From assembly GCA_018816345.1 (NCBI GenBank), contig JAHIWG010000009.1, positions 1-33,365 of the forward strand: a stretch of DNA of 33,365 nt, read 5' to 3'. Within the stretch, counting starts at the first letter, position 1, and every line of letters begins with the position of its first letter. Position numbers and translations under genes: made by a program. Origin of the DNA: Spirochaetota bacterium (GTDB lineage Bacteria > Spirochaetota > Spirochaetia > Treponematales > UBA12059). The notes under the pieces were generated by a model. That model ran no database searches. It was not told the origin of the DNA and saw nothing but the letters and a program-made list of their open reading frames with translations. This document shows, piece after piece, positions 21,826 through 25,585 of the stretch.

Positions 21826-22746
21826 TCAGGCTCGGGCGTCGAGCCAGGCTATGACGTCCGAACCGGCCTCGTCCCTGCACGTATCGTTCAGGACCTCGTG
21901 CCTTCCGTCCGGATAGAGCTTCTTGCCTACGTCCGCGACGCCAAGGGAGCGATATCGCTCGAATAGCTTGTCGAAGGTCCCGGGGGCGGCCCCTACGGGA
22001 TCCTTGGCGCCGGCTATCATGTAGATGGGAAGATCCTTAGGGATAGCGGCGGCGGTCGCGGGAGCGTGTATCCAGGATAGCCCCCCGAGCAGGTCCCGGA
22101 AGAACCCGTAGCTGCAGAGGAACCCGCAGAAGGGGTCGGAAACGTACTTATCTACCTCGGCGGGGTCTCGGGACAGCCAATCGAAGTCGGTCCTGGCGGG
22201 CTGGAAGGCGTTATTAAAGGAGCCGAAGCTCATGGAATTCATCAGCGGCGCCTTGGCGCGCTGCCCCTTGAACGCGCAGCCCAGGGCGGCGACTACCCTG
22301 CCCGCCTTGACCGCGGCTCCGCCGTCGCCGGCCGTTCCGCAGAGCACGCAACCTGCGAGATCGGCGCCGTATAGCGATATGAAGCCCTGAGACAGGAAGG
22401 ATCCCCATGAATGCCCGAAGAGGAACAGTTTCTTTCCTGGGCGCTCTCCGTGAATCCTGACCGAGAGGCCGCGGAGATCCTCGACGACCCGCCTGAAGCC
22501 GTCGGAGTCCGCGAGCCATCCCAGCTCGCCTTCCGCGGCGGTCTTCCCGTGGCCCCTATGGTCGGGAGCCCAAACCTCGTACCCCGCGCCCGTCAGCGCC
22601 TCCGCGAACCGGGCGTACCTAGCGGCGTGCTCGGCCATGCCGTGGGCGATGAGCACGCAAGCCTTGGGCTCGGCCCGGGGGCTCCAGTGATAGACGTGAA
22701 CACTCTTGCCGTCGTCCGCTATTAATGAGAATTCTTCGGTTTTCAT
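21826..22746 (-). CDS. Alpha/beta hydrolase, monoacylglycerol-lipase type
   Basis: A 306-residue serine hydrolase cleaving ester bonds, most like lysophospholipase/monoacylglycerol lipases. The fold markers are I-A-H-G-M-A-E-H (oxyanion region), D-H-R-G-H-G, the nucleophile elbow G-H-S-W-G-S, an acid Asp in G-A-K-D-P-V, and the catalytic His in D-G-R-H-E-V-L-N. There is no signal peptide, so it is probably cytosolic. The frame is open 40 codons upstream of this ATG, but homology starts at M-K-T-E-E-F, and the promoter elements overlap the extension. There is no Shine-Dalgarno; a -10 box is 6 nt upstream. Confidence 0.87.
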   Translation of the reverse strand: MKTEEFSLIADDGKSVHVYHWSPRAEPKACVLIAHGMAEHAARYARFAEALTGAGYEVWAPDHRGHGKTAAEGELGWLADSDGFRRVVEDLRGLSVRIHGERPGKKLFLFGHSWGSFLSQGFISLYGADLAGCVLCGTAGDGGAAVKAGRVVAALGCAFKGQRAKAPLMNSMSFGSFNNAFQPARTDFDWLSRDPAEVDKYVSDPFCGFLCSYGFFRDLLGGLSWIHAPATAAAIPKDLPIYMIAGAKDPVGAAPGTFDKLFERYRSLGVADVGKKLYPDGRHEVLNDTCRDEAGSDVIAWLDARA

Positions 22747-22751
22747 TATGA

Positions 22752-22781
22752 AAGTATACACCCGCTTGAACCGCTGCGCAA
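22752..22781 (-). promoter_or_regulatory. Promoter of the lipase gene, leaderless configuration
   Basis: On the minus strand TTGCGC (22781-22776), exactly 17 nt, then TATACT (22758-22753), and 6 nt to the ATG at 22746. The transcript should begin at or within a base or two of the start codon. Confidence 0.55.
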
Positions 22782-22862
22782 ACGAGATCGTCGGAACCAC
22801 GGGCGGCGAACCCCGGGCGCCGAGCTCCGGGCGGAGGCAATTTCGAATCGTAGAAATAGAGC

Positions 22863-22890
22863 TCAAGGAAACGCCCGGGCGTGCCGATGA
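22863..22890 (+). promoter_or_regulatory. Candidate sigma-28 (FliA) promoter of the first flaB
   Basis: TCAAGGAA (22863-22870), 12 nt, then GCCGATGA (22883-22890) resembles the FliA pattern TAAAGTTT-N11-GCCGATAA, with the -10 differing at one base and the spacer one longer. It would give a leader of about 220 nt. Evidence is by pattern only. Confidence 0.4.
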
Positions 22891-23077
22891 TTGAAGAGGA
22901 GATGGGTTATCGATACGGCGGAGGCCTCTAGGCCTTCCCCGTCGCGCCCTACTCTACGATCATCGGCTTGGGCACGGATAACTTAAGCGCGTTCCGACAG
23001 GCGGAACGCGTCGAGGGAGTCGCCGATAGGCGAGAGGAGGATCATAGGGCGACGCCGGCTAAGACGGAGATCGAATC
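22891..23077 (+). other. Structured, non-coding leader upstream of the first flaB
   Basis: No credible gene lies in the 373-base gap between the lipase start and flaB. This part holds three local inverted repeats: AGGCC/GGCCT (22922-22926/22931-22935); a 9-bp stem CGCGTTCCG/CGGAACGCG with a 5-nt loop (22988-22996/23002-23010); and TCGCC/GGCGA with a GATA loop (23020-23024/23029-23033). They suggest a folded 5' untranslated region. A GAGGAGG string at 23034-23040 has no start codon after it. Confidence 0.45.
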
Positions 23078-23115
23078 GCGGGACAAGGATGCCCCGCTTC
23101 TAGACTCAAGGAGGA
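23078..23115 (+). promoter_or_regulatory. Probable CsrA-binding hairpin plus Shine-Dalgarno of the first flaB
   Basis: GCGGG (23078-23082) pairs with CCCGC (23093-23097); inside, C84-G91 can also pair, leaving AAGGAT as the loop. The loop region ACAAGGATG matches the core of the known CsrA consensus (ACARGGAUG). A second GGA lies in the Shine-Dalgarno AAGGAGG (23108-23114), 23 nt downstream. Two GGA sites at this spacing, one over the ribosome site, are the usual CsrA repression layout. Confidence 0.6.
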
Positions 23116-23119
23116 AGTC

Positions 23120-23980
23120 ATGATCATCAACCACAACATCAGCGCTATGTACGCCAACCGCCAGCTCGGCGTCAACGGTCTTTCCGTGGACAAGAGCATG
23201 GAGAAGCTCGCCTCGGGCCTGCGCGTGAACCGCGCCGGGGACGACGCGTCGGGCCTCGCGGTCTCGGAGAAGATGCGTTCCCAGATCCGCGGCCTGAATC
23301 AGGCCTCGAAGAACGCCGCGAACGGCGTATCGTTCATCCAGACCACCGAGGGCTACCTCCAGGAGAGCCAGGATATACTCCAGAGGCTCAGGGAGCTCTC
23401 TATCCAGGCCGCCAACGGAATCTACACCGCGGAAGACCGCATGCAGATCCAGGTCGAGGTCTCCCAGCTCGTCGACGAGATAGACCGCATCGCCAGCCAC
23501 GCTCAGTTCAACGGGATGAACCTCCTGACCGGGCGATACGCCCGCGAGGACGGCGAGAACCTCATCACCGGTTCGATGTGGTTCCACATCGGCGCCAACA
23601 TGGACCAGCGCGAGCGCGTGTACATAGGCACGATGACCGCCAAGGGACTAGGCGTCAAGCAGATCGGTAGCGAGGAGATCGTGTCGCTGGCCTCCCCGGA
23701 CGGCGCGAACAGGACCATCGGGGTCCTCGACGAGGCCCTGAAGAAGGTCAATAAGCAGCGAGCCGACCTCGGCGCCTACCAGAACAGGCTAGAGCACGCG
23801 GTCCGCGGCATAGATATCGGCGCTGAGAACCTCCAGGCCGCCGAGAGCCGCATCCGCGATACCGACATGGCGTCCGAGATGGTCCGGTACACCAAGGACA
23901 GGATCCTGGTCCAGGCCTCCAGCGCAATGCTCGCCCAGGCCAACCAGAAAACCGCGTCCGTCTTGCAGTTGCTCCAGTAA
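23120..23980 (+). CDS. flaB: Flagellar filament core protein FlaB
   Basis: A 286-residue flagellin forming the core of the periplasmic flagellar filament. The N-terminal helix region [14 protein letters not shown], the stretch [20 protein letters not shown] and the C-terminal [13 protein letters not shown] are the conserved D0/D1 segments. The middle is short, as in spirochaete FlaB, which lack the large variable D2/D3 domains. There is no signal peptide; it is exported by the flagellar type III apparatus. AAGGAGG is 5 nt before the ATG. It has its own leader with a candidate sigma-28 promoter and a CsrA-type hairpin. It is similar to the next gene along its length, the product of an old duplication. 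Confidence 0.97.
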
Positions 23981-24003
23981 GGGGTTATACTCTTAATCGA
24001 TCG

Positions 24004-24044
24004 GGCGGCGGGCCCTCAAGGCTCGCCGCCGCAGGTCGTTCTTT
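24004..24044 (+). terminator. Hairpin between the two flaB genes
   Basis: GGCGGCGGGC (24004-24013) pairs with GCTCGCCGCC (24021-24030) over 10 bp with one G-U, 7-nt loop. The following bases are only partly T-rich (GTTCTTT), so this may be an attenuator or 3' stabiliser rather than a full terminator. TTGACA occurs at 24043-24048 without a matching -10. Confidence 0.4.
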
Positions 24045-24182
24045 GACAAATACCCTCGTGCGTATGCCGGCGGAGACGCCAGCCCCCTAGCGGGGACTGG
24101 TATCCCCGCCGTATGGGGCACGAACGGACGGGAACGGGCGCGAGAACACGAACTCCCGGCCCCAACGCCATACGCGCGGGAC

Positions 24183-24223
24183 GCGCGGCAAGGAATGCCG
24201 CGCAGTGAGTCCTGCAAGGAGGG
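24183..24223 (+). promoter_or_regulatory. Probable CsrA-binding hairpin plus Shine-Dalgarno of the second flaB
   Basis: A perfect 7-bp stem, GCGCGGC (24183-24189) with GCCGCGC (24197-24203), displays AAGGAAT as its loop. The Shine-Dalgarno AGGAGGG (24217-24223) holds a second GGA 26 nt downstream. Stem-loop GGA and ribosome-site GGA again form the paired CsrA layout. Upstream, CGGGGA/TCCCCG forms another small stem near 24093-24110. Confidence 0.6.
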
Positions 24224-24227
24224 TCAT

Positions 24228-25076
24228 ATGATAATTAACCACAACATGAGCGCAATGTACGCCAACAGAGCGTTGGGCGTTACGCAAACCGAGCTCAACA
24301 AGAATATGGAGAAGCTCGCTTCCGGCCAGCGCATCAACCGCGCCGGGGACGACGCTTCGGGCCTCGCGGTCTCCGAGAAGCTGCGCGGACAGATCCGCGG
24401 CCTGGGACAGGCTCAGCGTAATATCGAGAACGGCGTGTCCTTCATCCAGACCACCGAGGGCTACCTCCAGGAGACGCAGGACATCCTGCACCGAGTACGC
24501 GAGCTGGCCGTACAGTCGGCCAACGGCATCTACACCGCCGAGGACCGCATGCAGATCCAGGTCGAGGTTTCCCAGCTCGTCGACGAGGTGAACCGCATCG
24601 CCAGCCACGCCCAGTTCAACGGCATGAACATCCTGACCGGACGCTTCTCCAAGGAAGGCGGCCAGATCATGCAGCTGCAGGTCGGCGCCAACATGGACCA
24701 GAACGAGCGGCTCTTCATCGGTACGATGACGGCTCAGGCTCTCGGCCTCCAGGGCGCGCAGGGCACCGCGGAGATGATCTCCATATCCACGCCGGATAGC
24801 GCCAACCAGGCTATCGGCAATCTCGACGCCGCGCTGAAGTCGGTATCGAAGCAGCGCGCCGACCTCGGCGCCTACCAGAACCGCTTCGAGATGGCCTCCA
24901 AGGGCGTCGCTATAGCCGCCGAGAATCTACAGGCCGCCGAGAGCCGCATCCGCGACACCGACATGGCCTCGCAGATGGTCGATTACGTAAAGAACCAGAT
25001 CCTGACGCAGGCCGGCGGAGCTATGCTCGCCCAGGCCAACACCAGGACCCAGTCGGTCATGCAGCTGTTGGGTTAA
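24228..25076 (+). CDS. flaB: Flagellar filament core protein FlaB (second copy)
   Basis: A 282-residue core flagellin closely related to the preceding one. It has the same N-terminus ([14 protein letters not shown]), the same [14 protein letters not shown] block and the same C-terminal I-R-D-T-D-M-A helix, but differs in the central loop ([12 protein letters not shown] instead of the longer version in copy one). The ATG at 24228 is fixed by the Shine-Dalgarno and by alignment; the open frame extends 11 codons upstream. Spirochaetes assemble filaments from several FlaB isoforms, so both copies are probably used together. It is separated from copy one by a 247-nt gap holding two hairpins. Confidence 0.97.
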
Positions 25077-25149
25077 TGAAACCGTTCTGCGATTCGTAGC
25101 GGAGAGCTTCCTGGACGTCGTCTTTCCGCGACGGGTTTCTATGCGACAG

Positions 25150-25188
25150 GAGGGGAGGGATCGCGCCCTCTCCCCTTCACTTTACTAG
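25150..25188 (+). terminator. Possible terminator after the second flaB
   Basis: G-rich AGGGGAGGG (from 25151) faces CCCTCTCCCC (25166-25175) across a short loop, with a bulge, followed by TTCACTTTACT. It is 75 nt beyond the stop and would separate flagellin expression from flaG-fliD. Confidence 0.4.
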
Positions 25189-25232
25189 TTAGGCCGCGCA
25201 GTCGCGACGCCAGCGCGTCCCGGCGACGCGGT

Positions 25233-25251
25233 CGTTCCGATAGGAGGAACG
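25233..25251 (+). promoter_or_regulatory. Hairpin holding the flaG Shine-Dalgarno in its loop
   Basis: CGTTCC (25233-25238) pairs with GGAACG (25246-25251), loop GATAGGA. The Shine-Dalgarno AGGAGG (25242-25247) runs from the loop into the 3' arm. An AGGA in a hairpin loop at the ribosome site is a plausible CsrA target, matching the two flaB leaders. Confidence 0.5.
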
Positions 25252-25252
25252 T

Positions 25253-25585
25253 ATGTCGATCGACGTTTCTGCCGTTAGCGCGCTTCCCGGCGCGCTTTCA
25301 GCCAAGCCGCAGGATATCGCGCCCCAACGCGCGCAGCGCGTCGACGTGATGAGGACGGAACCGCCCGTGTCGATGGACGCCATCCTCGGAGAACTCGTCG
25401 ACGTGAGCGCCGCCTTCAACAAGAGGCTATCGTTCAGCATCAACGAGAAGCTCGACCAAGTCGTCGTCAAGGTAATCGATACCGACACCGATAAGGTTAT
25501 TAGGGAAATTCCGCCCACCGAGCTCCAGCACGTCCATGAGCGTATCAAGGAGGTACTCGGCATCCTGTTCGACGAGAGGGCGTGA
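25253..25585 (+). CDS. flaG: Flagellar protein FlaG
   Basis: A 110-residue FlaG-family protein. The conserved C-terminal half reads F-S-I-N-E-K-L-D-Q-V-V-V-K-V-I-D, then D-K-V-I-R-E-I-P-P-T-E-L, the family signature; the N-terminal half is variable and low complexity. FlaG proteins influence filament length in several bacteria; the mechanism is unclear. AGGAGG lies 5 nt before the ATG but within a hairpin. fliD begins 25 nt after the stop, so the two are almost certainly co-transcribed. Confidence 0.9.
   Translation: MSIDVSAVSALPGALSAKPQDIAPQRAQRVDVMRTEPPVSMDAILGELVDVSAAFNKRLSFSINEKLDQVVVKVIDTDTDKVIREIPPTELQHVHERIKEVLGILFDERA

Follow-up and report, generated by a model that had tools for sequence, protein, structure and literature searches.

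A conserved hairpin in a spirochete flaB leader as the probable upstream half of a two-site CsrA operator

Results

In a window of 33,365 nucleotides (the whole stretch of spirochete DNA that was analysed), the leader of the flagellin gene flaB2 carries a hairpin whose stem covaries across the phylum, and an ANGGA motif both in the loop of this hairpin and at the Shine-Dalgarno (SD) sequence, the two being held at a constrained distance. The same genome has a csrA gene, and in another family of the order csrA and flagellin are lost together. We read the flaB2 leader as a CsrA-FliW leader of the type found in Bacillus subtilis hag and Campylobacter jejuni flaA, in which a CsrA dimer would bridge the hairpin to the SD and block translation. 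We put the probability of this reading at roughly 0.87.

The gene flaB2 (24228..25076, forward strand) starts with the ATG at 24228 and codes for a flagellin of 282 aa (Pfam Flagellin_N, 2.5e-42; Flagellin_C, 2.4e-23), the putative target of regulation. The candidate CsrA site in its leader, or site 1, is a hairpin at 24183..24203 (forward strand), delimited from the sequence, RNAfold and orthologous hairpins across the phylum. The initial annotation had described a perfect 7-bp GC stem displaying AAGGAAT, with the SD GGA 26 nt further on, and direct reading agrees: the arms GCGCGGC (24183-24189) and GCCGCGC (24197-24203) form seven perfect G-C pairs around the loop AAGGAAT (24190-24196), and the GGA of the loop (24192) stands 26 nt from that of the SD (24218). 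RNAfold also pairs A24190 with U24196, giving 8 bp that enclose AGGAA, and adds an outer stem of 7 bp, GCGGGAC/GUCCUGC (24176-24182 with 24209-24215), that stops just 5' of the SD. This extended stem, in which the outer helix encloses a 5-nt bulge, spans 24176..24215 (forward strand) in RNAfold and in the leaders of relatives, although the GGAC/GTCC of the outer helix is kept only by close relatives (six leaders). The region 24176-24227 folds with a z of -4.2, and none of 200 shuffles was equally stable (RNAfold). The loop also contains an in-frame ATG (24195), which was dismissed as an alternative start since relatives have ACG or other codons at that place. No Rfam family reached its gathering score within 22700-25300.

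The CsrA SELEX consensus, RUACARGGAUGU (PMC7652899), has the loop CAAGGAUG as its core. By analogy with characterised leaders, the hairpin is very probably a CsrA site. One point speaks against this reading: most of the SELEX ligands had four or fewer pairs (PMC7652899), and the flaB2 stem, with its 7-8 pairs, nearly all of them G-C, and its outer helix, exceeds most of them in stability. The SD, AAGGAGG (24216..24222, forward strand), is read as the second site (ANGGA, site 2), from its sequence and from the A found invariably at -2 in flagellin SDs (see below). In the predicted fold the GGAGG of the flaB2 SD is partly paired, with an unpaired probability of 0.08-0.36, so that repression could in part be intrinsic.

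Leaders were gathered from 80 flaB loci of named genomes and from more loci of 120 sampled genomes of the phylum, which gave several hundred distinct leaders. Across Spirochaetota, about two-thirds of some 365 flagellin leaders have a stem of at least 6 bp at the hairpin position, and about 30% have no perfect hairpin of at least 6 bp there. When stems of at least 6 bp were picked by position, blind to the sequence of the loop, 216 of 255 (85%) showed ANGGA, the N being free (A, C, G or T), which is also true of CsrA sites. Hairpins with GGA in the loop and at least 4 bp were found in 171 of 197 flaB leaders, compared with 50 expected from dinucleotide shuffles, and those with at least 6 bp in 147, compared with 9 expected. 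A comparable hairpin (at least 5 bp) accompanies 77% of the flagellins, as against 18% of the other genes of the same loci.

Covariation was assessed in a structure-free alignment of 56 leaders, most of which belong to first copies; that of the third flaB is among the few exceptions. All eight pairs of the stem vary on both sides, and 87% of the cells are paired. The covariation score was 0.782; shuffling lowered it to 0.247, and sliding the partners gave no more than 0.255. The cells are counted per sequence and not per event, and scores of this type rise with relatedness, but the slid control retains that relatedness. The second-copy leaders were aligned by their position anchor alone, and at least 5 of 6 positions are paired in 41 of 56, compared with 27% when the arms of different leaders are mixed. 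MAFFT followed by RNAalifold gave no consensus structure for the second-copy leaders, because loops of 5, 6 and 7 nt shift the register. Judged by these sequence comparisons, the flaB2 hairpin is under selection, with covarying stems. Selection on the motif had been suggested before, and the covarying stems and conserved loop uphold it for an ANGGA hairpin suited to CsrA.

In 13 leaders from several families, mostly of downstream copies of flaB, the stem at the hairpin position is perfect (6-12 bp) but its loop shows ANGA (ATGAT, ATGAA, AAGAT or ACGAT) in place of ANGGA. These copies may have escaped CsrA control, since the change of GGA to UGA in SL1 of C. jejuni flaA abolished CsrA control (PMC4894983), or CsrA may read ANGA there.

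The upstream gene flaB1 (23120..23980, forward strand; 286 aa; Pfam Flagellin_N, 5.8e-41) has a homologous hairpin in its leader at 23078..23097 (forward strand), GCGGGAC AAGGAT GCCCCGC, with one A.C mismatch, and an SD AAGGAGG, the second site, at 23108..23114 (forward strand). The flaB1 hairpin was recognised from the sequence and is strongly backed by its orthologues through the covariation of the 56 first-copy and related leaders. The third flaB, on another contig of the same genome, has a perfect hairpin, TTTCGGC AAGGAT GCCGAGG. As first annotated, the stem letters differ between flaB1 and flaB2 (GCGGGAC/GCCCCGC versus GCGCGGC/GCCGCGC). That loop and spacing are kept holds approximately: the loop has 6 nt in flaB1 and 7 nt in flaB2, and the sites are 23 and 26 nt apart. 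The view of the flaB2 hairpin as independent, arguing against shared ancestry, is not supported. All three flaB paralogues have the hairpin, as do single-flaB spirochetes of another, distant family, so that common descent of the whole element, its stems covarying, is simpler; the hairpin is probably an ancestral element common to the flaB paralogues and retained by selection.

Covariance searches with model R1, built almost wholly from first-copy leaders, showed that the hairpin is not unique to this locus. R1 matched many second-copy hairpins. Matches at E <=0.01 were obtained in 50 of 58 genomes of the order, and all 29 newly fetched match loci have a flagellin gene, which in nearly all of them adjoins the match. 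Matches below about 27 bits are untrustworthy, because flagellin-free genomes also yield them, by chance and up to 26.7 bits; the flaB2 hairpin scored 15.1 bits (E 0.66 genome-wide), which is not significant by itself. A genome-wide R1 search for other genes bearing the element gave no convincing case. Of its four top matches, three are the flaB leaders themselves; the other (C162, 18.7 bits) lies inside an apparent coding sequence.

Weaker R1 matches lie just 3' of flaB2 in a few relatives (L009:1400-1466, reverse strand; L041:3406-3475; L085:3412-3481). They are no stronger than chance matches and perhaps precede flaG. In the window, the SD of flaG sits inside a hairpin, CGTTCC-GATAGGA-GGAACG (25234-25252), whose loop has no ANGGA and which is a possible SD-sequestering fold.

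The SD of the flagellin genes is kept as CANGGAGG. When GGAGG is preceded by a base other than A, an A stands at -2 in 70 of 70 flagellin leaders, compared with 49 of 90 other genes, a control set that includes some other flagellar genes. An invariant A(-2) is expected if a second CsrA site lies over the SD, and is not expected from pairing with 16S rRNA alone. The distance from GGA to GGA is 18-30 nt in 90% of the hairpin leaders, and the spacers average 10.5 nt. Bridging by a CsrA dimer works over 10-63 nt (PMC4066749), and the 26 nt of the flaB2 leader fall within this range. Longer spacers often hold an extra hairpin (11 leaders, two of them from one locus), and 5-18 nt remain once it is discounted. 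For all leaders with a distance of at least 33 nt, folding of the spacer gave a combined p of 9e-5 against dinucleotide shuffles, compared with 0.38 for control segments 5' of the hairpin in the same leaders. Borrelia-type leaders depart from this pattern: their spacers are long, rich in A+T and unstructured. That spacer hairpins bring the two sites back to their usual distance is suggestive of bridging by one dimer.

The genome to which the window belongs has one csrA, immediately 3' of fliW and with flgL upstream (flgL-fliW-csrA). In an alignment its CsrA retains R44 and N55, which we take to matter for the binding of RNA and of FliW, and its best PDB match is a chain in the FliW-CsrA complex 5DMB. 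Of 39 genomes sampled in the phylum, 38 have fliW and csrA side by side; the exception (G023) has neither. This genome was considered as a natural csrA knock-out and rejected, as fliW is missing too, ANGGA hairpins still occur in its flaB leaders (L030, for example) and its assembly is in 150 contigs; the absence is likely an assembly gap. In one family of the same order (f40), five of 14 genomes have both flagellin and csrA and nine have neither detectable flagellin nor csrA, counts that come from related, not independent, lineages. Such coupling is as expected if CsrA there serves mainly in flagellin control.

These data also bear on other explanations of the hairpin. The best of them, which we nevertheless consider improbable, is that it stabilises the 5' end, or serves as a ribosome-standby element, independently of CsrA, its AAGGA loop merely mimicking an SD. 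The flaB2 stem is indeed very stable, and in some lineages the stem outlasts the GGA of the loop (ATGAT, ATGAA, ACGAT), so that it may have a value of its own. Such an element, however, accounts neither for the dominance of ANGGA among the position-matched loops nor for the A kept at -2 in the SD when -1 varies, and it explains neither a constrained spacing that spacer hairpins restore nor the joint loss of csrA and flagellin. We see very little room for an intrinsic terminator, attenuator or processing hairpin between flaB1 and flaB2. A G-C-rich hairpin within the 247 nt that separate flaB1 from flaB2, both read in the same direction, would fit one, but AGUGAGUCCUGC, with no U run, follows the stem, the position of the hairpin is fixed relative to the SD and not to the upstream gene, and the same hairpin also occurs where no flagellin gene lies upstream, before first copies and before lone ones. 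Equally hard to credit is that the hairpin arose by chance, or that it was passively copied from the flaB1 leader and retained by descent only: the flaB paralogues are related and the flaB1 hairpin alone is no more stable than its shuffles (z -0.2 to -0.4), but the stem letters have diverged with pairing kept and the loop fixed, and the flaB2 hairpin is the sole ANGGA-loop hairpin in the window with at least 7 perfect pairs, for which chance predicts 0.18 per strand (0.03 for at least 8 bp).

Discussion

We propose a CsrA operator with two sites, of which the flaB2 hairpin is the upstream, high-affinity one. One face of the CsrA dimer would dock on the ANGGA loop (24190-24196), and the other would reach the ANGGA at the SD (24216-24220), some 26 nt away. 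The bridged CsrA would keep the 30S subunit off, and no FlaB2 would be made. During export of flagellin, FliW would bind CsrA and lift the repression; when flagellin backs up, it would itself bind FliW, and CsrA would be freed. With the same operator in front of flaB1 and the third flaB, one sensor could tune all three filament flagellins. Binding of CsrA, repression and switching by FliW are projected here from characterised homologous systems. The leader is very probably part of a conserved switch that halts the production of flagellin once the protein accumulates inside the cell.

Spirochete filaments mix flagellins, and it is conceivable that each paralogue has its own version of one ancestral CsrA operator, in which differences in the loop (ANGGA or ANGA), the stem and the spacer, inserted hairpins included, set the strength of repression and hence the ratio of the flagellins. 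We offer this idea tentatively, at less than even odds.

Switches of this kind in flagellin control are already known from Bacillus, Campylobacter and Borrelia. Described so far in a few model species, CsrA-FliW homeostasis of flagellin would thereby reach, through a conserved RNA element with covarying stems, the spirochetes at large and all filament flagellins of the present genome. In the literature searched, which took in few subscription papers, we did not find the upstream hairpin described as an element covarying across the phylum, and priority is uncertain. With the alignment and the model, it should be possible to predict CsrA control in uncultured spirochetes from their sequences. 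Natural variants that have lost the GGA, or that combine a stretched spacer with a compensating hairpin, offer a ready test of two-site bridging by CsrA.

Among spirochetes, a parallel in both phylum and gene is flaB of Borrelia burgdorferi, which is repressed by CsrA(Bb) (Sze 2011, as cited in PMC8668096 and PMC9481697). Borrelia-type leaders (genus inferred; a single divergent flaB) have GACAAATGGATTTGTC upstream and CACGGAGG at the SD. Unlike that of flaB2, their spacer is longer and unstructured, with 38-41 nt from GGA to GGA. According to the main text of PMC8668096, CsrA binds Leptospira flaB3 through GGA in gel shifts, and that of PMC9481697 names CsrA sites near the SD of Treponema denticola flaB1 and flaB2. 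In both organisms (flaB3 and flaB4 in Leptospira), the sites given in these texts lie at or near the flagellin SD, as does site 2 of flaB2; a term search of the same main texts found no description of an upstream ANGGA hairpin for these four genes.

In C. jejuni flaA, CsrA represses through two ANGGA stem-loops 21 nt apart, with FliW as the antagonist (PMC4894983), and compensatory changes occur within the genus (PMC4894983). The flaB2 leader resembles it in the ANGGA of the hairpin loop and at the SD, in the proposed role of FliW, in its covariation and in its spacing, 26 nt here as against 21 nt. It differs in that the SD site of flaA is itself a hairpin loop, whereas that of flaB2 comes after a long stem. 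In B. subtilis hag, as reviewed in PMC7652899, CsrA represses through two sites in the leader, one of them at the SD (Yakhnin 2007; Mukherjee 2011). The likeness to flaB2 lies in two sites, here candidates, in a flagellin leader, one of them over the SD, and in a genome with csrA and fliW. Unlike hag, several flagellin paralogues in the present genome each appear, from their sequences, to bear the operator.
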